The notes below the pieces were generated by a model. The model saw only the letters and a program-made list of their open reading frames with translations. It was not told the origin of the DNA and searched no databases. Positions 20,818 to 46,070 of a DNA stretch of 64,000 bases are shown piece by piece (positions within the stretch are counted from its first letter, which is position 1; each line of letters opens with the position of its first letter). Source of the stretch: Galerina marginata (lineage: Eukaryota > Basidiomycota > Agaricomycetes > Agaricales > Galerinaceae); assembly GCA_023014335.1 (NCBI GenBank), contig JAECYW010000025.1, forward strand, positions 62,001-126,000, read 5' to 3'. Both the position numbers and the translations under genes were made by a program.

Positions 20818-21804
20818 CAGCCTATGCCGCTAGTTGAAGACATCAGGTAGGTAAACTGCCCAAGGAGGACTTTGCATCAGGTAGGTAAACTACCCAACAG
20901 CAGTTTACCAAGAGTCTGCCTATGTATTAGGCTACAACGTGCTACAATGTTGCTCTAGTATGTACGTAGGGTATTTATTTGGTGATTGATGGCATCAATT
21001 CAGATCACATGACTTTGAATTTGCCTCTATTTACATGCTTGTCGCACATTTATGTAATTTATGGCCTCAAATGTAAACAAATATAAATAAAGACTCTCAG
21101 GGCCACTGCATCCATGATATAAAAGGCAATCAAGATGCAATTGCCTAAAATGGCAGTATTTAGTCAGCCAGTCAATTTTGGACTTAGCAGCATTTGTGCT
21201 AAGTTCTTTAAATTATTAATTAACACTAAAAGCCTTATATCTCAATGAGGAAGGTATCTGGTCATGTGATTTAAATTTTAGTAGGGTCTAAAAATAGATT
21301 ACGTTCCTCTGAGACCCTCTTTCCTTTTTGGGAAATTTTCCCGTCAGCCAAAATTTCTCACTGCCTGCTTTTTTTCACTTTTTTGCATTTTTCTCTGTGG
21401 GAAAAATAGCTAGGCACAAAATTTTGATGGATTCAGGGTCAGATGGCATGGCCGCACATTTTTTATTAATAGCACAGACACATCCGAGCACATTCAGGGA
21501 TGGCTTGGTAAACTGCCCAAGCTGTCAAAAAGTGAGGCTAGTTTGCCGAGCCTTTCCAGGATGTGCTCGGATGTGGCTGTGCCTCAGATAAAAAATGACG
21601 TAATCAGCTACGCAACCCTGAATCCATCAAAATTGTGCCTGTGTCTTCTTTCCTTATTGAGATATAAGCCAAATATTAGTACATGGTCAATTTACAGCCC
21701 TTGGTAAGTTAACGGTCAACGGTCAACTTACCAAGTAGGGCAGTTTACCTTCCTGATGCAAAGTCCTCCTTGGGCAAGTTACCATTATTTACACATCAAG
21801 GTAG
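20818..21804 (+). mobile_element. MITE-A, outer left copy (987 bp)
   Basis: It starts CAGCCTATGCCGCTAGTTGA and ends ACACATCAAGGTAG. Subterminal inverted sequences CCCAAGGAGGACTTTGCATC and GATGCAAAGTCCTCCTTGGG lie close to the ends. The core has CTGACCCTGAATCC-type sequence (reverse complement) and CACATCCGAGCACAT. No transposase. Other copies lie at 29794-30792 and the mirrored positions, with a diverged fragment at 50313-50540. Confidence 0.75.
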
Positions 21805-22003
21805 TGGCAACAGGTGATATAATTAAAGTAGTAATTAGAATAGATTACTACAACTAACAGTAATGTAATGTATGATGTTTAATATAAATAATAGACTATA
21901 AATGAACTACATTGAGATTTGACAGTGAAGTTAGCAAGCAGTAAGAAAAACATCAGTCAGATGGCCTCTATTACACTACTATTAGTACTATTCCCTTTAT
22001 TCC

Positions 22004-22195
22004 TTGGGGAATCCTAAGGGAATCCAGGGAATCCACAGGAATAGAGGGAACAGAAGGAATTTCCCAAGGAATAGAGGGAATTCCCTCCATTCCACTGGGA
22101 ATCCTACAGGAATAGAGGGATTCCCACCATTCCTAGGGAATCAGTGGGGGAATGAAAAGTACTGGAATATGGTAATACCATCCCGTAACATCTAG
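22004..22195 (+). repeat. GGGAAT-rich short repeat block (left arm)
   Basis: About twelve copies of GGAATCC/GGAATAGAGGGA variants in both orientations form a locally palindromic block. Its mirror is 42019-42210. The apparent 63-aa frame is a by-product of the repeat. Confidence 0.6.
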
Positions 22196-22272
22196 AATCT
22201 ATGCTTCCCATCTTAGGCTTCCCTCGAACAATTCCATGAATAAAACCCTTCTCAGTAGTTCAATTTCGCATT

Positions 22273-22360
22273 TAGTCCAATTCTTTGGCAAGGTAGGGCC
22301 CACCTTCCACAGGGACTTTGATTGGATGTGAAAGGAACAAGGATTTAGTACCAGGACAGT
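22273..22360 (-). pseudogene. Remnant of the Ulp1-type protease gene (left arm)
   Basis: Compared with the intact copy at 40697-41941, only 66 bp of one exon (matching 41099-41164) and the last coding bases (matching 41920-41941) remain. Two deletions of 782 and 755 bp removed the rest, including the whole catalytic region. The deletion ends show 1-bp or no microhomology. Confidence 0.85.
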
Positions 22361-22948
22361 ACTTGCTGCGAGTGTGGTTCTAGTTCCTCCTGCAGCCAGC
22401 AAATTGTGTGATGCCCGCTAATTGTACCTGTGTCACTGCTACCCATGTCCTGGTTGTGAATGTGTTCATCCCTGTACCCTAGACGTCCACTGTTGCAGGC
22501 CACCTGGGCACAAGGCGGAGAAGGGTTCACATCCAATTTTGCGTCCAATTTGAATATCTCGGGCACGCAGAATTTCCAATGCAATGATTCATACCAGATT
22601 ACCAAGTCCAACGCAAGTCAGATTTGGTGCACTAATCAAGCAGTACATGAAGAGAAAAACTAAAAAACGGAACGGTGACATAGATCTCATTTTTAGGCAG
22701 GGTGTTGTGAGGAATAAAACAGGCAGAGTTCATGCAAGCAGCAGGGCGAGAATATTCATATTTAGTCCAATGGTGTTTACTGTACATGGAAAGAGCAAGT
22801 TATATACATTGTGAAATAACAAGGGAGAGATGATAACGAGTGGTACGCTAAGACGGTGAGGATTGACTGAGGTATAGAAGGAAATGACTTGCAGAAATTT
22901 AACGAGTATTAAACGTCAAAGAAGCTGCTCCGACGGGTCAAGAACAAA

Positions 22949-23509
22949 TCACTTTGAAAAACATAAGCCAGTGACGATGTATAAAAGGAAACAACTTGCA
23001 GGAATATAACAAGCATTACGCCGTCTGACAATTTCTCTGTGTTTCTCCTCAATGTCCTCCCAGGTAATGATGAAGAGGTAATGCCCAAAGTTTGGGGGAG
23101 CGAATGTCGGTGGGCTCCCCAGTGTCGAAGTGCTGGCCCATATGGCAGGGCAGAAGAGTATCATCTTGAGGGTGGTGAACAAGTCGGGGTTGCCGGGGAC
23201 GTCAAATTCATTGTAATGAAAAATAGCATAAGAGTAAATCACCTGTGGGTTTAAATGAGAGAGGAGCGACAGGTCCGCGTGATCGTGGAGCAACAAGTGC
23301 AATTGTCTCTGTAGAGATGGAAAAGGTCAGTGCGACTAATATGACAAGGGATAGAGGGCGTTATGTTGGCGTTGCTCATGCCCTCTGGCACCAAACATCA
23401 TTTCAAAATATAAGGTGCGCATAGCATTCCCCAAGCCTTGCCCGAAATCCAGAATCACTGATTGTAGGATATGTTGTTTTTTGAAAGGGTTAGATTCTGC
23501 AGAGGTCAT
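22949..23509 (-). CDS. Unrecognised two-exon gene, left-arm copy
   Basis: Mirror of 39168-39728 with identical protein sequence; see that entry for the description. Confidence 0.4.
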
Positions 23510-23996
23510 GTTAGATGGGTGGAGTTTGGCGAGAGATGTTAGGATGGGAAATATTTCACATACAAGGCGAGGGTTAAATAGAGCAAGGCTTGAAGGCCCC
23601 CTACCCAAATTAGCTCGTATGTTTCGCGCGATAACATCGCGCTCAAAAGCGAGTTGGCACCTTTTCAAATTAACTTGATGTCGGATAACACCGCCGTACA
23701 TTTCATGCGTCAACCTCACGCCCGATGGCGAGCCAGCTGCCCATCAAATTAGCTCTACTTGCCGTATGTTTCTCAACTTGGAGGGAAATAAATCTAGACT
23801 GCGCAAAACATCCACTCAAATTCTCGGCAGTGAAAACAAGGCCCAATGGCACGATTTCATTGTACAGGGAATGAGATAAAATGAAAACAAGTGGACGACT
23901 GTCGGAGGCTTTCATTTGTCCGAGCTTGCGACTATTGTACAGAAAACACGTCCTCCCAGCTGAGTAATGCCTTCTATGCAAGCAAATCTTTGTGGG

Positions 23997-24955
23997 AGTG
24001 GTAGCTACCACTTGTGTGATGTAACATAGGCAAGTGCCTGCACAGGCATTTATTTCCAGCCCACCTATTCAAAGATATGAAATACTATGGCAAACTCATT
24101 GACATAGACCTGTGTTATTGTCCCAGGCTATGTTTTTGCCTGCCAGGCTTTATTTCATTGCCCTTCTAGAGCGATGTTTTTGCCATGTTTTTGATTCCCA
24201 AGGCCTGTGTTTATGCTGTGTTTTTGCTTGCTAGGCCGATATTTTATTGTTGCCTAATACTGTATCATTTCTATGTCTTTCCCTGCTAGGCTGATATTTC
24301 TTTGCTTGCCTAGGGCAATGTTTTGACGATATTTTACTTGCCTGTTAATTCTATGTCATATCTCTAGGTAAGAGTATTTGGTTGATTATGTGAGATATCT
24401 ATGTTATTTTGATGCAATATTTGAGGCACATGCTGGCAGGAGTGTGACCTTTGATCCTATGAAATGTTTCAATTTGAGGCCATAATTTGATGAGGAAACA
24501 AGTGTGGGAGCATGGGAAAGGCAATTTTATGAGCCATCAAAACATTACATAATCATATCTCACAGGAAAAATAAATATTCACCAGGCAGGCAATGAAATA
24601 AAATACTGGCAAGCATTAAAATATTAAAGACATTGCCCTAGGCAAGCAAAGAAATACCAGCCTAGCAAGGAAAAACATAGAAATGACACAGTATTAGGCA
24701 ACAATGAAATATCGGCCTAGCAAGCAAAAACATAGCATAAACACAGGCCTTGGGAATCAAAAACATGGCAAAAACATCGCCCTAGAAGGGCAACAAAATA
24801 AAGCCTGGCAGGCAAAAACATAGCCTGGGACAATAACACAGGTCTATGTCAATGAGTTTGCCATAGTATTTCATATCTTTGAATAGGTGTGCTGGAAATA
24901 AATGCCTGTGCAGGCACTTGCCTATGTTATATCACACAGAGTGGTAGCTACTAGT
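23997..24955. mobile_element. Foldback MITE B2, left-arm copy
   Basis: The outer ends are AGTGGTAGCTACCACT and its near-match ACTAGTAGCTACCACT, followed on both sides by GTGTGAT.TAACATAGGC AAGTGCC. The arms pair through most of the element, which is full of GCCTAGCAAGCAAAAACAT-type motifs. The ends resemble MITE B1 but the body differs. Mirror copy at 37722-38680. Confidence 0.75.
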
Positions 24956-26006
24956 GCTTTGCCCATAGAGAGCTATATGAGAATTCCAAGTCCAGTTTAA
25001 TTCTGCAGATCTAACGCAGGCAATGCAATCTGACTCAAGCTAAACATAGGCTTTCCCAACATGCAGCCGGCCATATTTGCTTCTGTGACGACTCGTTGCC
25101 ACAAACATACTCCAAATAACGGGCAAGGGAATCGGAGAGCCAGTCAAGGCTACAACATCGAGTCAGTTTGCCCTTATCAACTGTGGTGCCTTCTATTCAA
25201 GTCAACCCACGCTAATAGAGCTCGGCAGTGAAAATCGACTCTGCACAGTTCCGCGCGAAGCTGCAAATATCGGCATAGAAGCACAAAATTGGCGAGTATC
25301 CGACTCTCTGCGTTTCCCTGCCGCGGTCTTTCATTGCTTTCTATTCGTCAACGTTATCTCAACCTTCTATTTGCAATTCATTCTCGAAGTCGGCTGGACA
25401 AGCCCCGGGAAAATCACATATATATCCAAGGCCGTCACGAACATCCACATCCTCTCCTTCCTTCCTTCCCCCGCCTTCCCCACCATCCCCTGCTCTCTCA
25501 CGGCACAGTAGGAGGGTATGGGGTAGGCTCGGCTAGGTGGGTATGGGTATGGGTAGGGTATGGGTAGGGCATGGCAAGTGTGAGTAGGGCCTCGCTGATG
25601 TGGGTCAGACAGGGCACGGCAGGGGTGGTTATGGGCAGGCTTGGCAGGGTGGATACAGGTAGGATCGGCAAAATAGGACATACAAGACACAGTCTGGGGG
25701 TAGGGCGAACATGGTACCCCAATTGAGTTTAAACGGCAATGGCATGAAATGTGTTGTCGGCCATTCTGCTGTCGGTCAAAGTTTGCCGTCGGCAAGAAAG
25801 GCGACAAGTCGAACTGGCAAAACTCAATTTGAGTTGACATTCTTCGCAGGACTTGGTATGAGCCCAAACATTGCTCAACACGGTGGAACCATATCATTCC
25901 ACCTCTCAATAAATAAATAAAATAGGACATTCCATCATAAAGTTGAACCAGTCACAGATAATTCATTCACGAGGTTACAAATGTTAATGATGTATTGATT
26001 GGCAGA
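24956..26006. other. No gene recognised; short GGGTATGG tandem tract
   Basis: Positions 25505-25670 carry GGGTATGGGTAGGG-type tandem sequence and GTGGGTCAGACAGGGCACGG, related to the minisatellite at 58600-59330. The open frames (187, 92 and 74 aa) overlap this tract on both strands and look spurious. Mirror: 36671-37721. Confidence 0.45.
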
Positions 26007-26277
26007 TTATTTGGCAGCACTTGAAGGGCCCACAGCAACAGAGTCATCCATGGCTACGTCGCCGTCGGCCTGGTCCTCTAAGCCAGCATTCAATACCTCT
26101 AACTTCTGCTGAAAATGCATAAACGAGTTGCATGCATGGGTTGACAAAGCAGTGAATGCTTTGAGGCTACTCTGATTGACTTCAAGCTTCTCCATCTCGG
26201 CCAGGTACAGCTGATGGCTTGCATCCTTGTAAGTTATGCTGAGTTGTGGACATAGAGCCTGGATCTCTAAATGAATG
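26007..26277 (-). CDS. C-terminal exon of an unrecognised gene, left-arm copy
   Basis: Mirror of 36400-36670; identical sequence. See that entry. Confidence 0.4.
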
Positions 26278-26983
26278 CTGTGAATTTCACAGCAAGTTAA
26301 TTTCTAAATTACAGCGGCAGTGAGGTCTTTACCTTCACCCAGGTTTTCCGTACGGAGCCCATGTGGAGGATGGAGTCCGTATGGAGTCCCTCCATGATTT
26401 TTTTGGCTGGTGGCCCTGCCAAAGTGTGGTCAAAATCCACATGGAAATAACATGGACTCCGTAAAGAGGTGTGGAGTCCACATGGACTAGTTGGTGGAGT
26501 TGGCGGAGTCTCTATAAAATATAAAGAAGTTTACATACTGAAACATTGTTTGTGAGTGGATTATATAAGATATAATGATAATGTAATCAATCAATAATGA
26601 TAAACAAATATAAATAATATTTTTAAAAATAAAAATAAAATAAAATAAATATTCATCTAGAAAGACTCGTGTTTCGGCGACTTTTTTGCACTTTTCTCGC
26701 CAAGGAATACAGCTAGTCATGTGATTTTGATGGATGCATAACTTTCGGAATGATTTCCATGGTTACTATTTTTGGAAAAAAAATTCCCACAGTATTTATA
26801 TTTGGTGAATAAGCTTACAAATATCAGATATTTGTGATTATTTATATATATTTGGAATCTCCTTGAAATTCCGAATCCGGTGATACCCTATTGACCCTGA
26901 ACTTATGATAATATAAATATGATTTATATAAATAATTTAAAGTGGCAGGAGTATATATAGCTATTTTTCCTAGGGCTAAGAAA

Positions 26984-27060
26984 GCCTCTATGGTCTAGTG
27001 GTTAAGAGCTGTATGCTTTGGCTTATGTGACTAGAAGTCTTGGATTCAATTCCTATGGAA
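26984..27060 (+). other. tRNA-like sequence, possibly a SINE head (left arm)
   Basis: GCCTCTATGGTCTAGTGGTT contains a good A-box, and TGGATTCAATTCC lies where a B-box should be. The acceptor stem does not pair, so this is not a working tRNA gene. It may be the tRNA-derived head of a SINE or a pseudo-tRNA. Mirror copy at 35617-35693. Confidence 0.4.
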
Positions 27061-28168
27061 TGAAAAATTTTGCAGGTTTGAGATTCTGACTAAGTCCATT
27101 TCGTTGCAGTGAATAGGATTGTTAATGTGTTGGTCTAATCAATTACCAGGTCTGCAGGCATGTCAATTTTTTGTGCACCAACCTTAATGGCAGGCAAGTC
27201 AAGATCATTACCTGACTGGCAAAGGAGTCAGCAAAGTATTAAGAATAACTTAAGACAAAGTGGAAAAAACAAGTCTTAGAAGAAGACAGACATATAAATG
27301 TAAACCATGAAGGTAAGTCTGGGTGGAGTGGGTAAAGTAGGCAGTTACATTGACAAATAGATGCCGCATATTTTTTTTTGATACTGATTCTACCAGTAGC
27401 CACAGCCATGCGACGGCATGGCAGAAACCTGGGTAAAAGTAGAATCATCGAAGTACAGCATCAAAAGTCAGACGCAGCCTACGAACAGATGCCGCATGTA
27501 GTTCTTTGACACTGATTCTACCAGTAGCCACGGCCATGCGACATGTGGTCGGCACAGCAAGAATGGTATGAGATGGCAAGGAAAAGAACGTGGCAAAAGT
27601 TGATTTAATTACCATGCCGTTTGGATTGACTTTCCCAATCCGTTGACAAATAGGTGCCATGCCAAAGTACGCAAAGCCACGGTGAACATGTCACGGCATG
27701 GCAGGGACCTTGGTAAGAATGCAAATTGACCGCACAGCAACAAAAGTTGCCAAAACCATGACAAACATGGCAGTAGGAACATTGGCAAGAGTGGAAATAG
27801 ACGGCACGGCGACAACAGGTCATACAAATATCTGACCGACGGCATTGAAGCAAGAGAACGGCAAGGGAGAGTGATGGCGAGGGAAAGGGCATGAAAAGTT
27901 TTGTCTACTTGCCGTGCCATTCATCCTGACTCCCCTGTTTAATAGTTGCCGTAGAAACGAATTGCCGAAGCAGCCACAGCAGCGGCAAAGAGAGCACGGC
28001 CACGGCAAAGAGAGCACGGCCAACATGTGACAGCAACAAAAGGCCACAAGGCAAGGGATATCTCATGAGAACGGCACGGCGTGGCAAGCATTCATCGAGT
28101 GGAGCGGCATGGTAATCAAAACATAGGATGGCAAGGGGAAAGAAAAAACGGTGTGGGATTGGTACTCA
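27061..28168. other. No gene recognised; GGCA/GGCACGGC-rich repetitive DNA
   Basis: From about 27400 to 28120 the sequence repeats motifs such as GGCACGGCG, GGCATGGCA and GCCGCATGTAG...ACTGATTCTACCAGTAGCC (two copies, near 27360-27412 and 27487-27535). Open frames here are low-complexity. Mirror: 34509-35616. Confidence 0.4.
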
Positions 28169-28370
28169 CCCCTCCTCTCTTTGAGTGAGAATCCACTCCG
28201 TTTTCACGGCGTTGACATATTTTAGCAAGTTCCAGTGTTGCAGCTGGCACGGCAAAAGCAGGAACCAAGTAATTTTCGGCATCGACGCCCTCAATAAAGA
28301 CAATTCCTTCAGGTATTGCGTTGGGGGAGGGTGCAAGGTCGTCCATGGCAACGTCAAGTTCACTGTGCAT
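28169..28370 (-). CDS. First recognisable exon of an unrecognised gene, left-arm copy
   Basis: Mirror of 34307-34508; identical sequence. It points away from the Cys-cluster gene at 28659 with about 290 bp between the two starts, suggesting a divergent promoter. Confidence 0.4.
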
Positions 28371-28658
28371 CTGTTATACGTGGCAAGGATAAGAAGCGGG
28401 AGGGGGTTTGCTATCAAGAGAAACAACCTTTTAAATAACAAAGGCGACATGTGGTGTGGCGTGGGATGTTGAATTGTTGAACACATCACGCGAATATTAA
28501 TTTCTATTTATAGTGTTGTGCGGAATAAATCATGTGATGGTTGATTTTCGATTATCCATCAATCAACAATCATTCTTCCTCCCCAACTTCCAACTCCCTC
28601 TATCCACTCAGCCGTCGCCGTCTATCTGCTGCCGCCCTTCTCCCCTCCATTCGCAAAA

Positions 28659-29826
28659 ATGTCTCACCCTGCTTTTGCCGCACTTTCCGCTGAGATGGAA
28701 GCTCTTGAACAAAAGGCTTGGGCTGTCATTGTTGATGGAACAATTGTGGAGGCCATGGAGAACAGGCTCCGGAAGACGATTGTGAGTACAATGCCAATCA
28801 CAAGTAAAGAACTCACTCAGCTTTCCTTACAGAAAGATCTTCTCAAAAAAAAAGGTCCAATCCAGGTTGCAGCCAATGTGGGGGATGCCAACGGAAAGGC
28901 AATGCTCATCGATTCCGACGGCAACCAACTCTCAGACAGCTTTGGCAAGGAACCCAGTGACTGCGGCCTTGGCGACGAGGCCAACACCCGCCATTTTGGC
29001 AAAGAAATCAGTCGCCGCGCCGACGGCGACGGCAAAGCAGCCTGCCCCGGTCACGATGGCGACCGTGCCACCACCAGGCAAGCAAACAGCCGCACCACCA
29101 AAATCTGCTGTCACTCAGGCCCCAAAATCAAAGGCACTGGGCTTGATGGCGACCACCAAAAACATTCCCTCACAGCCGCCGCCTGCGGAGACGTCTGGTA
29201 CGCGCATCATCCAAAGCGGCAAGAACAATGCTGATAACAAAAAAGCCGACAAAGAGCCCGATCCCCAGGACCCTGATGCCGCCTACGACCCCGAAGCCGA
29301 CCCCGATGCAATGGACCTCGACACTGAACCGAAAATTGCGCGGAAGCCAAAGAATAGCAGCAATAAACTGTTACGCCCGGAAGCCCCCATCGACAAGACT
29401 TGGACGAATGATCCCCCTTGCAAGTACTGCGAGACGAAAAAGCGCGCCTGGCATCCCCAGCTTGCCGGATCTGGTAGAGGCGCCTGTTGGATCTGCAACA
29501 AGCGCAAGATAAAATGCGGTGGCCCGTTCAAGCTCTGGGAGGAGAAACGGAATGCAGCTCGGCCAACCGCTCCTGTTGGCAAGCCCAAGTCAAGGGAAAA
29601 ACCCACATTGGCCGCCGCCAAGTCCCAGGATCCTCCGCCGACAGCAACTGTCCCGGTTGAACTGCCAGCCAAGAAACGCTTCTTGAAGGCAAAGTCGAAA
29701 CCCAAGATGCCGTCGATGATTGGGTCAGAGACGGATGAGGAAAGGGAACCCCCTGATGAAGAGAGCATCGTCGTCAAACCCCACAAGAACGCCCAGCCTA
29801 TGCTGCTAGTTGAAGACATCAGGTAG
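28659..29826 (+). CDS. Cys-cluster (zinc-binding-like) protein, left-arm copy
   Basis: The frame opens MSHPAFAALSAEMEALEQKA. A GTGAGT donor at 28782 can pair with CAG at 28830-28832 (51 bp, in frame) or with GCAG ending at 28872 (91 bp), which shifts into the next frame. That second frame runs to 29826 with Ala/Pro/Lys-rich spacer, an acidic DPDAAYDPEADPDAMD stretch, and at 29419-29516 the cluster CKYCETKKRAW ... CWICNKRKIKC. This C-x2-C ... C-x2-C-x5-C pattern with a basic KRK between the last cysteines resembles DNA-binding Cys clusters of many basidiomycete proteins. The last ten residues (QPMLLVEDIR) are read out of the MITE-A end. Function unknown; I infer nucleic-acid binding only. Confidence 0.55.
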
Positions 29827-30792
29827 GTAAAGTGCCCAAAGAGGCTCATGCATCTGATAGGTAAGTTGACCATGTTGGGCAGTTTACCAACAGCCTGCAT
29901 ATTTGTTAGACTATGTCGTACGACAACGTGGGTCACGTACAGAGAAAAATATATATATTTATTTGGTGATTGATGGCATCAATTGAGATCACATGACTTT
30001 GAATTTGCCTCTATTGACATGCTTGTCGCACATTTATGTAATTTTATGGCCTTAAATGTAAACAAATATAAATAAAGGCTCTCAGGTCCACTGTATCCAT
30101 GATATAAAAGGCAATCAAAATGCAATTGCCTAAAATGGCAGTATTTAGTCAGCCAGCTAATTTTGGACTTAGCAGCATTTGTGCTAAGTTTCTTAATTTA
30201 TTAATTAACACTAAAAGCCTTATATTTCAATAAGGAAGGTATCTAGGCATGTGATTTAAATTTTAGTAGAGTCTAAAAATAGATTATGTTCTTTTGAAAC
30301 CCTCTTTCCTTTTTGGGAAAATTTCCTGTCAGCCAAAAATTTTCACCGCCGGCTTTTTTTTTCAGTTTTTTTGCATTTTTCTCTGTGGGAAAAATAGATA
30401 GGCCCAAAATTTTGATGGATTCAGGGTCAGATGGCATGGCCGCACATTTTTTATTAATAGCCCAGCCACATCCGAGCACATTTGGGAATGGCTTGGTAAA
30501 CTGCCCAAGCTGTCAAAAAGTGAGGCCAGTTTGCCGAGCCTTTCCAGGATGCGCTTGGATGTGGCTGCGCCTCTGATAAAAAATGACGTAATCAACAACA
30601 TGTCCCTGAATCCATTAAAGTTGTGGCTGTGTCTTCTTTCCTCATTGAGATATGAGCCAAATAGTAGTACATGGACAACTTACAGTCTTTGGTAAGTTGA
30701 CCAAAGACAGTCAACTTACAGTCTTGGGCAGAATACCTATCTGATGCATGAGGCCCTTTGGGCAACTTACCATTATTTACACATCAAGGTAG
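29794..30792 (+). mobile_element. MITE-A, inner left copy (999 bp)
   Basis: Same ends as 20818-21804 (CAGCCTATGC...ATCAAGGTAG) with moderate divergence in between. It supplies the last residues and stop codon of the Cys-cluster gene and forms the inner border of the left arm. Mirror: 31884-32883. Confidence 0.75.
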
Positions 30793-31883
30793 CAGCAAGA
30801 GGTGGGTAGTAAGTAGATGATTCCAGCGGGTACGTGTTCGGCGCTTGTTTATTCGATTCCAGAATCCGGAGATGAGAGGATCATCAAAGCTGCAGCCAGT
30901 GCAAGTGAATTTATTACAACAGCACACAGTCAATGCATTTGATTACAAGCCTCGTACAAAACCCTGTGACCAGCAAAATCTATCTCTTCTCTGGATATCT
31001 TGAAAAAGAATTTCTCCCTGTTGTTGATGTGAAAAGTAGCGCAAACATGTGGGAGCTCCGCCTTAATTTTCCAGGTGGAAATTTTGAAGGCATCGACATT
31101 GAAGAAGAGGCCAGGACAGTGAAAGTCTGCCGGTGGCAACAACACCTTACCTGCGGTTCTGTTGGTTCCTGGAAGAAATGCAATGGTATGAATTACCCCA
31201 TCCATATATTTTTTAAAGAGAAACACAGAATCTGACAACCTTCATTGTTCCAAGTATTTGTAATGGTCAAGCGTTCTGAGATCGCAAATGCATGAAGGAG
31301 TTCCGTCAGTGCATTATGCCACTGTGTAGTTTTCGTCTTTGTCCTCCTCTTTAAAGAACTTTCAGTATCCCCCCCCTCAAAATGGCCTACCAAGAGAGCA
31401 TCGATGAGAAAATGATGTTCAATTTCCTCATGAGAACATGCAGCTACTTCATGAGCAATCTTTCTGCCAAAACAAAGGACAGTGTAAATATTTTTACAAA
31501 TACTGGGAATGCTGGAGGCAGCATATTTAATTTGTTTTTTGAGCAAGAGTCTACTTTCGATGAATTTCACCCGGAAGAGATCACACCTTTAATTCGCTCC
31601 AAAGTTCTATTCCAACAGGCAACAAGCTCACAAACAATGATCCCAGTGGGCTTAACCGGCTGGCTTGGTTGCGCGGGGGGAGGAGGGATAGTGCCAGGCA
31701 GGTACATGGGCAGCTGGGGGCAGAGATCCCACTTGTTGGTATGGCTCCAGAAGAACCGCTGGTTTTCTGTGCGTGCTTCCTACTCCATCACGGTGTGGTA
31801 TGAAATAATGTGTATGCAACAATAAAAGTCGGTGACAACTGCGTCCTTTTCCCAGATGAAGACGACCAAACGACTTGTGGGCC
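30793..31883. other. Unique spacer at the centre of the palindrome
   Basis: This is the only part of the structure not mirrored. It has an open frame at 30933-31235 (100 aa, plus; LRLNFPGGNFEGIDIEEEAR) and another at 31382-31825 (147 aa, plus; MAYQESIDEKMMFNFLMRT), with a minus-strand frame overlapping both (125 aa at 31193-31570). None is recognised. They may be decayed exons of a gene once lying between the two inner MITE-A copies. Confidence 0.5.
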
Positions 31884-32883: not shown

Positions 32884-34018
32884 GGCGTTCTTGTGGGGTT
32901 TGACGACGATGCTCTCTTCATCAGGGGGTTCCCTTTCCTCATCCGTCTCTGACCCAATCATCGACGGCATCTTGGGTTTCGACTTTGCCTTCAAGAAGCG
33001 TTTCTTGGCTGGCAGTTCAACCGGGACAGTTGCTGTCGGCGGAGGATCCTGGGACTTGGCGGCGGCCAATGTGGGTTTTTCCCTTGACTTGGGCTTGCCA
33101 ACAGGAGCGGTTGGCCGAGCTGCATTCCGTTTCTCCTCCCAGAGCTTGAACGGGCCACCGCATTTTATCTTGCGCTTGTTGCAGATCCAACAGGCGCCTC
33201 TACCAGATCCGGCAAGCTGGGGATGCCAGGCGCGCTTTTTCGTCTCGCAGTACTTGCAAGGGGGATCATTCGTCCAAGTCTTGTCGATGGGGGCTTCCGG
33301 GCGTAACAGTTTATTGCTGCTATTCTTTGGCTTCCGCGCAATTTTCGGTTCAGTGTCGAGGTCCATTGCATCGGGGTCGGCTTCGGGGTCGTAGGCGGCA
33401 TCAGGGTCCTGGGGATCGGGCTCTTTGTCGGCTTTTTTGTTATCAGCATTGTTCTTGCCGCTTTGGATGATGCGCGTACCAGACGTCTCCGCAGGCGGCG
33501 GCTGTGAGGGAATGTTTTTGGTGGTCGCCATCAAGCCCAGTGCCTTTGATTTTGGGGCCTGAGTGACAGCAGATTTTGGTGGTGCGGCTGTTTGCTTGCC
33601 TGGTGGTGGCACGGTCGCCATCGTGACCGGGGCAGGCTGCTTTGCCGTCGCCGTCGGCGCGGCGACTGATTTCTTTGCCAAAATGGCGGGTGTTGGCCTC
33701 GTCGCCAAGGCCGCAGTCACTGGGTTCCTTGCCAAAGCTGTCTGAGAGTTGGTTGCCGTCGGAATCGATGAGCATTGCCTTTCCGTTGGCATCCCCCACA
33801 TTGGCTGCAACCTGGATTGGACCTTTTTTTTTGAGAAGATCTTTCTGTAAGGAAAGCTGAGTGAGTTCTTTACTTGTGATTGGCATTGTACTCACAATCG
33901 TCTTCCGGAGCCTGTTCTCCATGGCCTCCACAATTGTTCCATCAACAATGACAGCCCAAGCCTTTTGTTCAAGAGCTTCCATCTCAGCGGAAAGTGCGGC
34001 AAAAGCAGGGTGAGACAT
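32851..34018 (-). CDS. Cys-cluster (zinc-binding-like) protein, right-arm copy
   Basis: Mirror and sequence-identical copy of the gene at 28659-29826: same 5' frame, same intron options, same CKYC ... CWICNKRKIKC cluster and same MITE-A derived C-terminus. It is divergently arranged with the exon at 34307. Confidence 0.55.
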
Positions 34019-34306
34019 TTTTGCGAATGGAGGGGAGAAGGGCGGCAGCAGATAGACGGCGACGGCTGAGTGGATAGAGGGAGTTGGAAGTTGGGGAGGA
34101 AGAATGATTGTTGATTGATGGATAATCGAAAATCAACCATCACATGATTTATTCCGCACAACACTATAAATAGAAATTAATATTCGCGTGATGTGTTCAA
34201 CAATTCAACATCCCACGCCACACCACATGTCGCCTTTGTTATTTAAAAGGTTGTTTCTCTTGATAGCAAACCCCCTCCCGCTTCTTATCCTTGCCACGTA
34301 TAACAG

Positions 34307-34508
34307 ATGCACAGTGAACTTGACGTTGCCATGGACGACCTTGCACCCTCCCCCAACGCAATACCTGAAGGAATTGTCTTTATTGAGGGCGTCGATGCCG
34401 AAAATTACTTGGTTCCTGCTTTTGCCGTGCCAGCTGCAACACTGGAACTTGCTAAAATATGTCAACGCCGTGAAAACGGAGTGGATTCTCACTCAAAGAG
34501 AGGAGGGG
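34307..34508 (+). CDS. Exon of an unrecognised gene (right arm)
   Basis: After an ATAACAG acceptor, or from its own ATG, it reads MHSELDVAMDDLAPSPNAIP and ends at a GGGTGAGT donor after SHSKRGG. The DVAMDD wording recurs in the exon at 36400-36670, so the two may belong to one gene split by the insertion-rich DNA between them. I do not recognise a domain. Confidence 0.4.
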
Positions 34509-35616
34509 TGAGTACCAATCCCACACCGTTTTTTCTTTCCCCTTGCCATCCTATGTTTTGATTACCATGCCGCTCCACTCGATGAATGCTTGCCACGCCG
34601 TGCCGTTCTCATGAGATATCCCTTGCCTTGTGGCCTTTTGTTGCTGTCACATGTTGGCCGTGCTCTCTTTGCCGTGGCCGTGCTCTCTTTGCCGCTGCTG
34701 TGGCTGCTTCGGCAATTCGTTTCTACGGCAACTATTAAACAGGGGAGTCAGGATGAATGGCACGGCAAGTAGACAAAACTTTTCATGCCCTTTCCCTCGC
34801 CATCACTCTCCCTTGCCGTTCTCTTGCTTCAATGCCGTCGGTCAGATATTTGTATGACCTGTTGTCGCCGTGCCGTCTATTTCCACTCTTGCCAATGTTC
34901 CTACTGCCATGTTTGTCATGGTTTTGGCAACTTTTGTTGCTGTGCGGTCAATTTGCATTCTTACCAAGGTCCCTGCCATGCCGTGACATGTTCACCGTGG
35001 CTTTGCGTACTTTGGCATGGCACCTATTTGTCAACGGATTGGGAAAGTCAATCCAAACGGCATGGTAATTAAATCAACTTTTGCCACGTTCTTTTCCTTG
35101 CCATCTCATACCATTCTTGCTGTGCCGACCACATGTCGCATGGCCGTGGCTACTGGTAGAATCAGTGTCAAAGAACTACATGCGGCATCTGTTCGTAGGC
35201 TGCGTCTGACTTTTGATGCTGTACTTCGATGATTCTACTTTTACCCAGGTTTCTGCCATGCCGTCGCATGGCTGTGGCTACTGGTAGAATCAGTATCAAA
35301 AAAAAATATGCGGCATCTATTTGTCAATGTAACTGCCTACTTTACCCACTCCACCCAGACTTACCTTCATGGTTTACATTTATATGTCTGTCTTCTTCTA
35401 AGACTTGTTTTTTCCACTTTGTCTTAAGTTATTCTTAATACTTTGCTGACTCCTTTGCCAGTCAGGTAATGATCTTGACTTGCCTGCCATTAAGGTTGGT
35501 GCACAAAAAATTGACATGCCTGCAGACCTGGTAATTGATTAGACCAACACATTAACAATCCTATTCACTGCAACGAAATGGACTTAGTCAGAATCTCAAA
35601 CCTGCAAAATTTTTCA

Positions 35617-35693
35617 TTCCATAGGAATTGAATCCAAGACTTCTAGTCACATAAGCCAAAGCATACAGCTCTTAACCACTAGACCATAGAGGC
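35617..35693 (-). other. tRNA-like sequence (right arm)
   Basis: Mirror of 26984-27060. Confidence 0.4.
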
Positions 35694-36399
35694 TTTCTTA
35701 GCCCTAGGAAAAATAGCTATATATACTCCTGCCACTTTAAATTATTTATATAAATCATATTTATATTATCATAAGTTCAGGGTCAATAGGGTATCACCGG
35801 ATTCGGAATTTCAAGGAGATTCCAAATATATATAAATAATCACAAATATCTGATATTTGTAAGCTTATTCACCAAATATAAATACTGTGGGAATTTTTTT
35901 TCCAAAAATAGTAACCATGGAAATCATTCCGAAAGTTATGCATCCATCAAAATCACATGACTAGCTGTATTCCTTGGCGAGAAAAGTGCAAAAAAGTCGC
36001 CGAAACACGAGTCTTTCTAGATGAATATTTATTTTATTTTATTTTTATTTTTAAAAATATTATTTATATTTGTTTATCATTATTGATTGATTACATTATC
36101 ATTATATCTTATATAATCCACTCACAAACAATGTTTCAGTATGTAAACTTCTTTATATTTTATAGAGACTCCGCCAACTCCACCAACTAGTCCATGTGGA
36201 CTCCACACCTCTTTACGGAGTCCATGTTATTTCCATGTGGATTTTGACCACACTTTGGCAGGGCCACCAGCCAAAAAAATCATGGAGGGACTCCATACGG
36301 ACTCCATCCTCCACATGGGCTCCGTACGGAAAACCTGGGTGAAGGTAAAGACCTCACTGCCGCTGTAATTTAGAAATTAACTTGCTGTGAAATTCACAG

Positions 36400-36670
36400 C
36401 ATTCATTTAGAGATCCAGGCTCTATGTCCACAACTCAGCATAACTTACAAGGATGCAAGCCATCAGCTGTACCTGGCCGAGATGGAGAAGCTTGAAGTCA
36501 ATCAGAGTAGCCTCAAAGCATTCACTGCTTTGTCAACCCATGCATGCAACTCGTTTATGCATTTTCAGCAGAAGTTAGAGGTATTGAATGCTGGCTTAGA
36601 GGACCAGGCCGACGGCGACGTAGCCATGGATGACTCTGTTGCTGTGGGCCCTTCAAGTGCTGCCAAATAA
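36400..36670 (+). CDS. C-terminal exon of an unrecognised gene (right arm)
   Basis: After a TTCACAG acceptor it reads SIHLEIQALCPQLSITYKDA, then a helical, Gln/Glu-rich stretch (MEKLEVNQSSLKAF), an acidic GDVAMDDSVAV and a stop. It could form a coiled coil. No domain is recognised. The mirror copy at 26007-26277 is identical. Confidence 0.45.
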
Positions 36671-37721
36671 TCTGCCAATCAATACATCATTAACATTTGT
36701 AACCTCGTGAATGAATTATCTGTGACTGGTTCAACTTTATGATGGAATGTCCTATTTTATTTATTTATTGAGAGGTGGAATGATATGGTTCCACCGTGTT
36801 GAGCAATGTTTGGGCTCATACCAAGTCCTGCGAAGAATGTCAACTCAAATTGAGTTTTGCCAGTTCGACTTGTCGCCTTTCTTGCCGACGGCAAACTTTG
36901 ACCGACAGCAGAATGGCCGACAACACATTTCATGCCATTGCCGTTTAAACTCAATTGGGGTACCATGTTCGCCCTACCCCCAGACTGTGTCTTGTATGTC
37001 CTATTTTGCCGATCCTACCTGTATCCACCCTGCCAAGCCTGCCCATAACCACCCCTGCCGTGCCCTGTCTGACCCACATCAGCGAGGCCCTACTCACACT
37101 TGCCATGCCCTACCCATACCCTACCCATACCCATACCCACCTAGCCGAGCCTACCCCATACCCTCCTACTGTGCCGTGAGAGAGCAGGGGATGGTGGGGA
37201 AGGCGGGGGAAGGAAGGAAGGAGAGGATGTGGATGTTCGTGACGGCCTTGGATATATATGTGATTTTCCCGGGGCTTGTCCAGCCGACTTCGAGAATGAA
37301 TTGCAAATAGAAGGTTGAGATAACGTTGACGAATAGAAAGCAATGAAAGACCGCGGCAGGGAAACGCAGAGAGTCGGATACTCGCCAATTTTGTGCTTCT
37401 ATGCCGATATTTGCAGCTTCGCGCGGAACTGTGCAGAGTCGATTTTCACTGCCGAGCTCTATTAGCGTGGGTTGACTTGAATAGAAGGCACCACAGTTGA
37501 TAAGGGCAAACTGACTCGATGTTGTAGCCTTGACTGGCTCTCCGATTCCCTTGCCCGTTATTTGGAGTATGTTTGTGGCAACGAGTCGTCACAGAAGCAA
37601 ATATGGCCGGCTGCATGTTGGGAAAGCCTATGTTTAGCTTGAGTCAGATTGCATTGCCTGCGTTAGATCTGCAGAATTAAACTGGACTTGGAATTCTCAT
37701 ATAGCTCTCTATGGGCAAAGC

Positions 37722-38680
37722 ACTAGTAGCTACCACTCTGTGTGATATAACATAGGCAAGTGCCTGCACAGGCATTTATTTCCAGCACACCTATTCAAAG
37801 ATATGAAATACTATGGCAAACTCATTGACATAGACCTGTGTTATTGTCCCAGGCTATGTTTTTGCCTGCCAGGCTTTATTTTGTTGCCCTTCTAGGGCGA
37901 TGTTTTTGCCATGTTTTTGATTCCCAAGGCCTGTGTTTATGCTATGTTTTTGCTTGCTAGGCCGATATTTCATTGTTGCCTAATACTGTGTCATTTCTAT
38001 GTTTTTCCTTGCTAGGCTGGTATTTCTTTGCTTGCCTAGGGCAATGTCTTTAATATTTTAATGCTTGCCAGTATTTTATTTCATTGCCTGCCTGGTGAAT
38101 ATTTATTTTTCCTGTGAGATATGATTATGTAATGTTTTGATGGCTCATAAAATTGCCTTTCCCATGCTCCCACACTTGTTTCCTCATCAAATTATGGCCT
38201 CAAATTGAAACATTTCATAGGATCAAAGGTCACACTCCTGCCAGCATGTGCCTCAAATATTGCATCAAAATAACATAGATATCTCACATAATCAACCAAA
38301 TACTCTTACCTAGAGATATGACATAGAATTAACAGGCAAGTAAAATATCGTCAAAACATTGCCCTAGGCAAGCAAAGAAATATCAGCCTAGCAGGGAAAG
38401 ACATAGAAATGATACAGTATTAGGCAACAATAAAATATCGGCCTAGCAAGCAAAAACACAGCATAAACACAGGCCTTGGGAATCAAAAACATGGCAAAAA
38501 CATCGCTCTAGAAGGGCAATGAAATAAAGCCTGGCAGGCAAAAACATAGCCTGGGACAATAACACAGGTCTATGTCAATGAGTTTGCCATAGTATTTCAT
38601 ATCTTTGAATAGGTGGGCTGGAAATAAATGCCTGTGCAGGCACTTGCCTATGTTACATCACACAAGTGGTAGCTACCACT
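37722..38680. mobile_element. Foldback MITE B2, right-arm copy
   Basis: Mirror of 23997-24955, same ends and foldback structure; a few base differences are visible. Confidence 0.75.
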
Positions 38681-39167
38681 CCCACAAAGATTTGCTTGCA
38701 TAGAAGGCATTACTCAGCTGGGAGGACGTGTTTTCTGTACAATAGTCGCAAGCTCGGACAAATGAAAGCCTCCGACAGTCGTCCACTTGTTTTCATTTTA
38801 TCTCATTCCCTGTACAATGAAATCGTGCCATTGGGCCTTGTTTTCACTGCCGAGAATTTGAGTGGATGTTTTGCGCAGTCTAGATTTATTTCCCTCCAAG
38901 TTGAGAAACATACGGCAAGTAGAGCTAATTTGATGGGCAGCTGGCTCGCCATCGGGCGTGAGGTTGACGCATGAAATGTACGGCGGTGTTATCCGACATC
39001 AAGTTAATTTGAAAAGGTGCCAACTCGCTTTTGAGCGCGATGTTATCGCGCGAAACATACGAGCTAATTTGGGTAGGGGGCCTTCAAGCCTTGCTCTATT
39101 TAACCCTCGCCTCGTATGTGAAATATTTCCCATCCTAACATCTCTCGCCAAACTCCACCCATCTAAC
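38681..39167. other. Possible 5' region of the gene at 39168; no clear gene
   Basis: Open frames at 38666-38974 and 38958 onward overlap the MITE end and lack any recognised motif. A TCTATTTAACC box lies at 39095-39106, about 65 bp before the ATG at 39168, and may be a promoter element. Confidence 0.3.
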
Positions 39168-39728
39168 ATGACCTCTGCAGAATCTAACCCTTTCAAAAAA
39201 CAACATATCCTACAATCAGTGATTCTGGATTTCGGGCAAGGCTTGGGGAATGCTATGCGCACCTTATATTTTGAAATGATGTTTGGTGCCAGAGGGCATG
39301 AGCAACGCCAACATAACGCCCTCTATCCCTTGTCATATTAGTCGCACTGACCTTTTCCATCTCTACAGAGACAATTGCACTTGTTGCTCCACGATCACGC
39401 GGACCTGTCGCTCCTCTCTCATTTAAACCCACAGGTGATTTACTCTTATGCTATTTTTCATTACAATGAATTTGACGTCCCCGGCAACCCCGACTTGTTC
39501 ACCACCCTCAAGATGATACTCTTCTGCCCTGCCATATGGGCCAGCACTTCGACACTGGGGAGCCCACCGACATTCGCTCCCCCAAACTTTGGGCATTACC
39601 TCTTCATCATTACCTGGGAGGACATTGAGGAGAAACACAGAGAAATTGTCAGACGGCGTAATGCTTGTTATATTCCTGCAAGTTGTTTCCTTTTATACAT
39701 CGTCACTGGCTTATGTTTTTCAAAGTGA
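39168..39728 (+). CDS. Unrecognised two-exon gene (right arm)
   Basis: The ATG at 39168 opens MTSAESNPFKKQHILQSVIL. A GTCATATTAG...CTCTACAG intron near 39330-39369 removes the stop of the first frame and leads to RQLHLLLHDHADLSLLSHL, then EFDVPGNPDLFTTLKMILF and HYLFIITWEDIEEKHREIV. The intron interpretation keeps one frame for about 170 residues. I find no known domain. It lies just upstream of the Ulp1-type gene on the same strand and could be its first exons. Its left-arm mirror (22949-23509) is identical. Confidence 0.45.
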
Positions 39729-40065
39729 TTTGTTCTTGACCCGTCGGAGCAGCTTCTTTGACGTTTAATACTCGTTAAATTTCTGCAAGTCATTTCCTTC
39801 TATACCTCAGTCAATCCTCACCGTCTTAGCGTACCACTCGTTATCATCTCTCCCTTGTTATTTCACAATGTATATAACTTGCTCTTTCCATGTACAGTAA
39901 ACACCATTGGACTAAATATGAATATTCTCGCCCTGCTGCTTGCATGAACTCTGCCTGTTTTATTCCTCACAACACCCTGCCTAAAAATGAGATCTATGTC
40001 ACCGTTCCGTTTTTTAGTTTTTCTCTTCATGTACTGCTTGATTAGTGCACCAAATCTGACTTGCG

Positions 40066-40320
40066 TTGGACTTGGTAATCTGGTATGAATCATTGCATTG
40101 GAAATTCTGCGTGCCCGAGATATTCAAATTGGACGCAAAATTGGATGTGAACCCTTCTCCGCCTTGTGCCCAGGTGGCCTGCAACAGTGGACGTCTAGGG
40201 TACAGGGATGAACACATTCACAACCAGGACATGGGTAGCAGTGACACAGGTACAATTAGCGGGCATCACACAATTTGCTGGCTGCAGGAGGAACTAGAAC
40301 CACACTCGCAGCAAGTGTAG
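40066..40320 (+). CDS. Small Cys-containing open frame, unrecognised
   Basis: It reads FKLDAKLDVNPSPPCAQVAC followed by NSGRLGYRDEHIHNQDMGS and ends shortly after the point (40316) where the left arm is deleted. It could be an exon of the surrounding Ulp1-containing transcription unit. The mirrored copy (22361-22611, minus) is fused to the deletion scar. Confidence 0.35.
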   Translation: MDLVIWYESLHWKFCVPEIFKLDAKLDVNPSPPCAQVACNSGRLGYRDEHIHNQDMGSSDTGTISGHHTICWLQEELEPHSQQV

Positions 40321-40570
40321 CCAGGCGAATGGTGGTTAGGAACAGAAATCGTTGATTTCTTTGAATCAACAATAATATTCCCATCACCTTGTTTTATCTT
40401 ATTTGAAGCAATTTGGAATACAAACCTCTGCGATCCGTTGATGCGGCCGCGCCCCCACAACAAATCCCCCATTTGGAATTTGTGTCTCAGGCTAAAACCC
40501 CCCGGACACGACTGCCTGCATTCCTGATTTGTTGTTGATTGTAATCCCGCTATTATGATTCATCTACTAC

Positions 40571-40647
40571 ATGGACTACAGTACCTCGAGGAGTTTGTTC
40601 AGCGTTGAGTATATGGACTACAGTACCTCGAGGAGTTCGTTCAGCGT
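40571..40647 (+). repeat. Two tandem 42-bp units
   Basis: ATGGACTACAGTACCTCGAG followed by GAGTT.GTTCAGCG occurs twice, at 40571 and 40613. It lies in the segment present only in the right arm. Confidence 0.7.
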
Positions 40648-40696
40648 ATTTGTCAAATTATGAGGTTTCAATGAAAATAGTTTAACCCTGACCTCA

Positions 40697-41941
40697 GGCA
40701 GCTTTAAACGTTTTGGAGGTGCTGAGGAAGTACTATGGCTTCCTTTGTAAGTCTGTCAAAGAAGATCTGCTCGAAACAACCACAGCGCAGGACTTCCCCG
40801 ATCTTCTGAGACTGTGGCTATCAAGAACTGTATGTTATTGCTTTCAAGACAATGAAGGAAGAAAAAAATACCAAATAAAGGAGAAACCTCCTATGAACGA
40901 TGATTGTAAGTTTTGCAAATCTATAATCTTCCCACCAATATCCTTACCATCCACCTCATACTTCTCCTGAATTAGTTTTGGGGCGACTTCTCCAACAAGA
41001 CAAGCTTCTAGTCGAGGCATCAACGCTGGCAAACCTCATGTGGAAAAACACTCCTTTTAGATGGATTCGGCCCAGCCGCTTATGGGATGTTAGTATATAC
41101 TGTCCTGGTACTAAATCCTTGTTCCTTTCACATCCAATCAAAGTCCCTGTGGAAGGTGGGCCCTTAACCCAGATGATTCGCGAAGGAGAACCTCCTCAAA
41201 CGGTCTTATTCCTATCCGAATTGGAGAAAAAGAAGTGGTCATGGGACACTTGTTTTAACGGGAATCCAACACGTAAGACAATTGAACATACTTCTTTTGA
41301 GAGGCTGAGACCGAAAATGTGGATAAATGACAAGGTGATCAATGGCTACCGGGATATCCTTTCAAAACTCAATATTGAAGGACGAGCACTCTCTTCCACC
41401 TGGTTTTGGGGGAAGTTGCTTATAGACAATGGCCAAGATGTAGAGAGACGAAAATTTGCCTTGCAGCAAATGGTACGCTCCTCGCCGCTGCCTTAACCTG
41501 TCGCTGACAACTTTTAATTGCAGATAAATCTGAAGCAAACTATTCACTCTACCAACTGGCGCTCGTCTGTGGGAGGGTTTTCTCAGTGGCTACGAAGTTG
41601 TCTGTATCCCGGTTAACTGGAGCAGTGACCATTGGCTCTTAGCCATTCTATACCCCCATAAAAAGAGGGTCATCTTTATGGATAGCCTGCTGGGATGTAC
41701 TGGAAACTCTGGAAGACAAGCAATATATAATGTGCGTATTTCTTCCCTTGAATGTAAATGTTTAAGCTTACTGACCAGGCTTTATTCAGAGACTATGGAT
41801 TAATCTGGAATTCGGAGAAGGTTGGTCCTGGAATGACATACAAACGCCCACCCAAAACAACACAGACGACTGCGGCATGCTCACATGCCAATTCATGAAT
41901 ATTCGCCTACTTAGGACGGACCTTGCCAAAGAATTGGACTA
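40697..41941 (+). CDS. Ulp1-type cysteine protease (peptidase family C48)
   Basis: Ulp1 proteases process SUMO-like modifiers. The recognised exons are about 40697-40907 (KPPMNDD before a GTAAGT donor), 40976-41472, about 41534-41729 and about 41790-41941. The family's substrate-contact motif appears as KMWINDKVINGYRDIL. The catalytic part reads VVCIPVNWSSDHWLLAIL (catalytic His), VIFMDSLLG (Asp), then TQNNTDDCGMLTCQFMNI (Gln and Cys), so all four active-site residues are present. Upstream exons are uncertain. The gene is complete only in this arm. Ulp1 genes are carried by several eukaryotic DNA transposons (for example plant Ulp1-bearing MULEs), so a transposon-borne or captured role is plausible; a host SUMO protease fragment is the alternative. 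Confidence 0.75.
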
Positions 41942-42018
41942 AATGCGAAATTGAACTACTGAGAAGGGTTTTATTCATGGAATTGTTCGAGGGAAGCCTA
42001 AGATGGGAAGCATAGATT

Positions 42019-42210
42019 CTAGATGTTACGGGATGGTATTACCATATTCCAGTACTTTTCATTCCCCCACTGATTCCCTAGGAATGGTGGGAATCCCTCT
42101 ATTCCTGTAGGATTCCCAGTGGAATGGAGGGAATTCCCTCTATTCCTTGGGAAATTCCTTCTGTTCCCTCTATTCCTGTGGATTCCCTGGATTCCCTTAG
42201 GATTCCCCAA
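42019..42210 (-). repeat. GGGAAT-rich short repeat block (right arm)
   Basis: Mirror of 22004-22195. Confidence 0.6.
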
Positions 42211-42409
42211 GGAATAAAGGGAATAGTACTAATAGTAGTGTAATAGAGGCCATCTGACTGATGTTTTTCTTACTGCTTGCTAACTTCACTGTCAAATCTC
42301 AATGTAGTTCATTTATAGTCTATTATTTATATTAAACATCATACATTACATTACTGTTAGTTGTAGTAATCTATTCTAATTACTACTTTAATTATATCAC
42401 CTGTTGCCA

Positions 42410-43396
42410 CTACCTTGATGTGTAAATAATGGTAACTTGCCCAAGGAGGACTTTGCATCAGGAAGGTAAACTGCCCTACTTGGTAAGTTGACCGTTGACC
42501 GTTAACTTACCAAGGGCTGTAAATTGACCATGTACTAATATTTGGCTTATATCTCAATAAGGAAAGAAGACACAGGCACAATTTTGATGGATTCAGGGTT
42601 GCGTAGCTGATTACGTCATTTTTTATCTGAGGCACAGCCACATCCGAGCACATCCTGGAAAGGCTCGGCAAACTAGCCTCACTTTTTGACAGCTTGGGCA
42701 GTTTACCAAGCCATCCCTGAATGTGCTCGGATGTGTCTGTGCTATTAATAAAAAATGTGCGGCCATGCCATCTGACCCTGAATCCATCAAAATTTTGTGC
42801 CTAGCTATTTTTCCCACAGAGAAAAATGCAAAAAAGTGAAAAAAAGCAGGCAGTGAGAAATTTTGGCTGACGGGAAAATTTCCCAAAAAAGAAAGAGGGT
42901 CTCAGAGGAACGTAATCTATTTTTAGACCCTACTAAAATTTAAATCACATGACCAGATACCTTCCTCATTGAGATATAAGGCTTTTAGTGTTAATTAATA
43001 ATTTAAAGAACTTAGCACAAATGCTGCTAAGTCCAAAATTGACTGGCTGACTAAATACTGCCATTTTAGGCAATTGCATCTTGATTGCCTTTTATATCAT
43101 GGATGCAGTGGCCCTGAGAGTCTTTATTTATATTTGTTTACATTTAAGGCCATAAATTACATAAATGTGCAACAAGCATGTAAATAGAGGCAAATTCAAA
43201 GTCATGTGATCTGAATTGATGCCATCAATCACCAAATAAATACCCTACGTACATACTAGAGCAACATTGTAGCACGTTGTAGCCTAATACGTAGGCAGAC
43301 TCTTGGTAAACTGCTGTTGGGTAGTTTACCTACCTGATGCAAAGTCCTCCTTGGGCAGTTTACCTACCTGATGTCTTCAACTAGCGGCATAGGCTG
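42410..43396 (-). mobile_element. MITE-A, outer right copy (987 bp)
   Basis: Mirror of 20818-21804, ending GCATAGGCTG at 43396. It differs from the left copy at several bases, some of them CG against TG or CA. Confidence 0.75.
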
Positions 43397-43460
43397 GCCT
43401 GACTTATTCACCCCAACTGGTAACTGCCATGATTTCATTAATGAATATAGCTTACAAGGC
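43397..43460 (-). mobile_element. Severed end of a CAGCCTTGTAAG-type transposon
   Basis: On the minus strand it begins CAGCCTTGTAAGCTATATTC directly after the TCGACGT target and continues to CAGTTGGGGTGAATAAG, then stops at the palindrome border. It matches the right end of the element at 44690-45378 in inverted form. Confidence 0.7.
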
Positions 43461-46001: not shown

Positions 46002-46006
46002 TCTGT

Positions 46007-46070
46007 TTGGAAGCTCGGATGCACCAGAACAAAAACTCGGAAAGATTGGACTTAGGATCGGATCGTGACA
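46007..46070 (-). repeat. Left end of family X LTR, inverted
   Basis: Reverse complement matches about 87-150 (TGTCA.GATCCGATCCTAAG). Confidence 0.7.

Follow-up and report, generated by a model that had tools for sequence, protein, structure and literature searches.

Foldback, Pack-TYPE and composite transposons carry long inverted arms bounded by the ends of mobile repeats, with pieces of genes inside. Inverted duplications are also produced without transposition. In humans, fold-back events leave a single-copy (disomic) spacer between the arms, and three of the 21 joints published lie in interspersed repeats (PMC3907307). In yeast, origin-dependent inverted-repeat amplification (ODIRA) is described as a switch between leading- and lagging-strand templates that yields palindromic joints, later enlarged by secondary rearrangements; it predicts a dimeric circle or an inverted triplication from inverted repeats of about 5 nt lying 40-80 nt apart, and the same paper calls long palindromes unstable and rare in natural genomes (PMC10766186). 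Mu killer of maize is described as a natural inverted duplication of transposon sequence that can be read into hairpin RNA (PMC3440606). Here we describe a palindrome from the agaric Galerina marginata, whose two near-identical arms of about 10 kb end on copies of a ~1-kb repeat of the miniature inverted-repeat transposable element (MITE) kind. It lies in a 64,000-nt stretch, the window (C18:62001-126000, C18, like the other C numbers below, being a contig), and was compared with the whole genome of 69.3 Mb in 43 contigs.

Judged from the assembled sequence, the palindrome looks genuine and young: an inverted segmental duplication, set in a repeat-rich stretch, whose general type is known. The published human fold-back duplications share with it inverted arms, a short single-copy spacer and one new joint at one end of that spacer. 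ODIRA would share the palindromic joint made by a strand switch, but the present locus has two arms and a 1.1-kb spacer. The palindrome resembles Foldback, Pack-TYPE and composite transposons in having inverted arms that end on a repeat, with gene pieces inside; it differs from them in its unequal ends, in showing no target duplication and in having no second copy that we found. Like Mu killer, it is an inverted duplication that could be read as a hairpin; unlike Mu killer, no transposase was recognised in the arm open reading frames (ORFs) scanned. In the open-licence literature searched, we saw no report of such a palindrome from a fungus. The features are as follows, in window positions.

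20818-30792, left arm, 9,975 bp
20818-21816, plus strand, MITE-1L (MITE-A), outer repeat copy that meets the arm border with its 5' end, CAGCCTATGC; lacks a target duplication
21817-22164, plus strand, second short repeat of ~348 bp adjoining MITE-1L, with many genome copies; matches to query positions 1-349, the best at 98% on C25
22165-25501, plus strand, segment alpha, left-arm copy, 92-99% similar to C13:1212186-1216833 and to the duplicate of that stretch at C13:1305077; holds both deletions
22289-22303, minus strand, 15-mer across the joint of the 755-bp deletion (22294|22295), identical to the 15-mer of the right inner border
24001-24956, inverted-repeat element within alpha (arms 24001-24336 and 24617-24951), absent from the C13 relative
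25502-29793, plus strand, segment beta, for the most part 88-93% similar to C17:636839-641451, with 88-98% similarity to pieces of C18:134236-151894
about 26322-27105, another repeat of ~783 bp, inside beta
29794-30804, plus strand, MITE-2L, inner repeat copy with complete 3' end
between the arms, spacer of 1,091 bp
30805-31884, plus strand, spacer after the MITE-2L end
31877-31891, plus strand, right inner joint: GTGGGCCC (C13-like spacer), then TACCTTG (MITE-2R)
31884-43396, right arm, 11,513 bp
31884-32883, minus strand, MITE-2R, inner repeat copy, last ~12 bp lost and fused to other sequence
32884-42397, minus strand, right arm interior: the left-arm blocks in inverse order, without the deletions (arm alignment, BLAST)
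40317-41098, deletion 2: 782 bp missing from the left arm, one base of placement ambiguous
41165-41919, deletion 1: 755 bp missing from the left arm
41302-41942, plus strand, Ulp1-like cysteine peptidase region (Peptidase_C48) of the right arm, boundaries inferred
42398-43396, minus strand, MITE-1R, outer repeat copy, 5' end at the arm border
43397-43462, 66-bp repeat at the start of the right flank; 16 other genome copies begin within two bases of the border

BLAST and the arm alignment place the arms and spacer exactly where the original prediction had put them. Arm against arm, BLAST aligns 8,433 columns at 99.96% and a further 1,477 bp at 99.73%, far beyond chance. The alignment contains six mismatches, all transitions and three of them in CpG context, together with a 1-bp homopolymer indel (30353/32323); nearly 8 kb, about 22362-30352, is free of indels, in agreement with the predicted figure of about 8 kb. 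Gaps of 755 and 782 columns interrupt the left arm on either side of a retained 66-67 bp; the two gaps and the single homopolymer base make up 1,538 bp, the entire difference in arm length. The gaps bear out the two real deletions that had been proposed. The claim of identical predicted proteins is a restatement of DNA identity.

The two ends of the spacer are built differently. At the left inner border the end of MITE-2 is complete, whereas at the right inner border C13-like sequence ending in GGGCCC is joined to MITE-2R; the C13 relative reads on past GGGCCC at the point where the palindrome is fused, and base 31884 fits spacer and arm alike. Given an intact MITE-2 end at the left border and a fused one at the right, one strand switch would be enough. 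Within the spacer, 30805-31006 has little or no other match (one 45-bp stretch at 84% reaches in), 31007-31642 resembles C42:2883846-2884596, and 31643-31884 resembles C13:1224217-1224498, in a gene present in two C13 copies. That relative lies ~7.4 kb past the end of the alpha relative, in the same order and orientation as in the right half. The full spacer is found once in the genome and only as partial matches elsewhere, so that two near-identical inverted arms surround a single-copy spacer, the arrangement of a fold-back duplication. Origin of the spacer as a spliced complementary DNA was considered and rejected: the additional stretch that C42 has and the spacer does not starts with TGGATG... 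and, in this alignment, shows no GT...AG ends of the usual kind, and the gap relative to C13 falls between short direct repeats. Small deletions are a better fit than introns.

The order of events may be read from the loss of CpG sites. Seven blocks, covering 3,413 of the 9,975 arm columns, were compared with the corresponding letters of C13 or C17. At the 500 CpG positions of the relatives that aligned to both arms, 96 C-to-T changes occur in both arms and none in one arm only, whereas independent decay to the same level would leave about 155 discordant sites. Consequently, either the duplication came after the decay or conversion has erased the differences. The decay is one-sided, with 0 and 6 changes in the opposite direction against C13 and C17, respectively. 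In the arms, 12 changes fall at 23 CpGs of alpha (C13), 41 at 94 of the Ulp1 region of the right arm (C13) and 91 at 252 of beta (C17). In the spacer, which is 92-95% identical to its relatives, the counts are 10 at 18 CpGs against C13 and 12 at 27 against C42; C-to-T or G-to-A changes on the spacer side account for 38 of the 50 differences, and 22 of these changes lie at CpG. Since spacer and arms have decayed similarly, the spacer was probably present before the duplication. So the mosaic would have decayed first and been duplicated afterwards, unless gene conversion keeps the arms alike.

That last proviso is a rival reading that we regard as unlikely. Gene conversion acts between palindrome arms on mammalian Y chromosomes, and an old palindrome kept uniform in this way would fit the 96-to-0 count of shared decay equally; four of the six mismatches, moreover, lie near the outer end, where conversion tracts would fade. 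Against it, two large deletions stand unhomogenised, and the decay of the spacer is not clearly greater than that of the arms.

The right inner border also shares a short sequence with one of the deletions. The 15-mer GTGGGCCCTACCTTG has just two occurrences in the 69.3 Mb, one at the right inner joint and the other spanning deletion 1, and only 3 of 20,000 simulated deletion joints gave a spanning match of at least 15 bases to the stretch of roughly 60 bases around that joint. Its presence at both places means that one may have templated the other, which suggests that the central joint served deletion 1 as a bridge, or vice versa.

We therefore favour, at an even chance, a single strand switch inside MITE-2, by fold-back or of the kind known as microhomology-mediated break-induced replication (MMBIR), with the right inner border as the new joint. 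For the enzymology, the order of events and the question of which arm is the copy, we infer the following course. A single-copy mosaic of MITE-1, alpha, beta, MITE-2 and spacer would have been built earlier and would then have lost many CpGs. At the spacer's far end, a stalled nascent strand or a 3' end left by breakage would fold back or switch strand, land inside MITE-2 about 12 bp before its end and copy the arm a second time; alternatively, copying could have passed through the spacer and then turned back inside MITE-2, or the reverse. The outcome would be one new central joint at the right inner border, a single-copy spacer as the loop and an older left inner border. Copying would stop at the 5' end of MITE-1, perhaps through annealing to a further repeat copy. 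The left arm would lose 1.5 kb of its Ulp1 region in two skips that spared the 66-67 bp between them, and the 755-bp skip may have taken the central joint as its template.

Several observations weigh against this account. The outer borders of the two arms coincide exactly with MITE-1 ends, and a random stop of copying does not account for this. The microhomology at the central joint is 1 bp (31884), with C13 taken as a proxy for the lost spacer end, compared with 2-8 bp at the 13 published human fold-back joints with short microhomology (PMC3907307); the extra skips in one arm and the outer borders on repeat ends likewise set the palindrome apart from the human cases, as does the lack of a known terminal deletion. 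The 15-mer is striking only by its position: if the whole window is allowed, a spanning match of at least 15 exists for 3.7% of the simulated joints and for 11 of the 300 random control positions. For deletion 2 there is no comparable bridge, the corresponding values being 10 bp in the window and 0 at the joint. The outer 507 bp hold four of the six mismatches, with a P of about 9e-5 under an even spread, for an interval picked afterwards. The three arm differences in CpG context fall outside the compared blocks, and against the C18 relative the decay is less one-sided, with 31 changes in the arm and 15 in the relative. Finally, MITE-2 sits inside and truncates the beta gene, whose C17 and C18 relatives run on with different sequence (GAACCAGG...). 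Neither arm has this continuation on its spacer side, so the left inner border too has been rearranged; it is presumably the older one, and it is not the original flank of the MITE-2 insertion.

Weighing the repeat itself requires a closer look at its family. Copies are ~1 kb long with constant ends, CAGCCTATGC at the 5' end and ...GGTG at the other (CAGCC...GGTG overall), and members 83-97% like MITE-1 lie on many contigs, among the 40 of 133 candidates scored. The sequence CAGCCTATGC, originally taken for both ends, marks the 5' end only; it agrees in part with CACCTGTTGC, the reverse complement of the other end, as judged by eye. Thirty loci were cut, and three palindrome copies and four copies that do not have both ends were set aside. 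Among the remaining 23, nine have an exact target duplication (eight of 7 bp, one that reads as 8 bp), one matches at 6/7, and 13 show neither. In its many copies, its constant ends and, where present, its target duplication of fixed length, the repeat is like a MITE. The 13 copies without a target duplication are more than we would expect for simple insertions of copies so similar. The same MITE does stand at both ends of each arm, as proposed, although MITE-2R lacks its last ~12 bp, which leaves intact repeat ends at both borders in the left arm only.

Transposition, regular or aberrant, is about as improbable as conversion. Under this explanation the repeat's transposase would have made its cuts at the ends of MITE-1 and MITE-2 and then relocated or fused a 10-kb unit in inverted orientation. 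The outer borders lying exactly on repeat ends, and the inner ones at an end or ~12 bp short of it, speak for it; the 13 of 23 other copies without an exact or 6/7 target duplication indicate that the ends may often be rearranged. What the borders themselves show is less favourable. There is no target duplication round either arm or the whole palindrome: 7-bp flanks agree at 2/7 for the left arm, at best 4/7 over 20 offsets for the right arm and at 3/7 for the whole palindrome, and the three palindrome copies with a complete 3' end have flank matches of 3/7, 1/7 and 2/7. Flanks do not cross-match among the copies examined, and the right inner end is truncated. A genome search for further copies returned full-length matches only at the two arms, with no third full-length arm in the 69.3 Mb (40 of 221 candidates scored). 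The composite mobile unit of the original prediction is on these grounds not supported, and neither is the palindrome as one element, given the 3/7 agreement of its outer flanks. A variant that keeps fold-back copying and lets transposase cuts at MITE-2 and MITE-1 ends begin and end it, with repeat ends as habitual breakage points and the 10-kb arms able to form a silencing hairpin, we consider doubtful. The repeat may have taken part as a breakage or annealing site.

The base changes predicted in the outer MITEs are present as four C/T differences, and they bear on ectopic recombination between repeat copies, which could have joined two inverted single arms or replaced flanks. Similar copies on many contigs offer partners for this, and the cluster of MITE-1 mismatches could mark an exchange. 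By comparison with the four nearest copies, the right copy carries the derived base at three of the four substitutions; the fourth (20923) is ambiguous, with C in three of these four copies and T in most of the family. Each of the three T alleles of MITE-1R is shared by 3 or 4 more distant copies, and one of the alleles by both MITE-2 copies, but they are absent from the four nearest, and lone C-to-T mutations explain them equally. Recombination alone, furthermore, makes no second 8-kb arm, and we consider it quite improbable. The right outer border sets one repeat end against another, MITE-1R against the 66-bp repeat. Searched as one joined query, the outermost flanks of both sides gave no empty-site locus crossing the joint by more than 2 bases; apart from the window itself, the left and right flanks match different places.

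An assembly artefact, either a fold-back chimera or joined haplotypes, is very improbable, and the original prediction had also argued against it: near-identical inverted arms, here judged from the assembled sequence, are its classic form, but the arms differ by two clean ~0.8-kb deletions and six transitions, the inner borders are asymmetric, the spacer is diverged, decayed and related to families on two other contigs, and the 43 contigs yielded neither a third arm among the candidates scored nor any further copy of the outermost flanks that runs across the joint. Shared CpG decay, together with the same deletions, borders and spacer, likewise supports the predicted recent inverted duplication, for which a strand switch inside MITE-2 is our preferred origin.

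Matches elsewhere in the genome show each arm to be a mosaic in its own right, made of C13-like blocks, C17/C18-like blocks and short repeats in the order, from outside inwards, MITE-1, the ~348-bp repeat, alpha, beta and MITE-2. The C13 relative was missed by the arm search and recovered by later searches. Pfam scans covered selected ORFs, namely 10 distinct arm ORFs, two spacer ORFs and three Ulp1 pieces, and among all these a cut-off was passed by two Ulp1 pieces only. The Ulp1 exon pieces that match are two of the three (41540-41731 and 41793-41939, E 8.9e-6 and 2.7e-4), while the piece at 41302-41484 has no match above the cut-off; deletion 1 takes nearly all of this stretch out of the left arm. 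A homology search with a 319-aa ORF against 3,709 candidates found no homologue at E 0.001.

Blocks related to the arms are repeated elsewhere. C13:1212186-1224498 recurs 92,891 bp further on, at 1305077-1317389; the two copies differ at 3 positions over 4,329 bp and at 2 over 3,197 bp, and the pair has the look of a recent large segmental duplication. The inverted-repeat element of the arm has four copies on C9 (461118, 484267, 507402 and 530540), whose spacing of 23.14-23.15 kb suggests a tandem array of 23-kb units at C9:461118-531502, outside the window. A GC-rich minisatellite is common to 58585-59291 and the start of beta (25502-25669).

Other features of the window include a gypsy-type long terminal repeat (LTR) retrotransposon with a chromodomain (10509-16750; LTRs 10509-11004 and 16255-16750, 99.2% identical), whose gag and pol frames are open; its pol ORF had no match when searched against phages. 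A CxC5 cysteine-cluster domain, associated with KDZ transposases, lies at 51968-52726; together with the chromodomain polyprotein of the gypsy-type element it would indicate a basidiomycete. The lowest CpG observed/expected ratio of any 2-kb bin in the window, 0.16, is found at 46001-48000, which is heavily decayed. Piwi-domain and DNA-methylase matches are present in the genome.

The interest of the locus is its readable history and not a new kind of mobile element. As a natural inverted pair with 8 kb free of indels, it is a useful case in which shared CpG decay orders the events and a shared 15-mer hints at serial template switching within one repair event. If transposase cuts did begin and end the copying, short non-autonomous elements would make long palindromes without moving them, and the 10-kb inverted arms, read as a hairpin, could silence the same repeat families. 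If repeat ends seed such events, short mobile elements would be linked to large inverted duplications in fungi.

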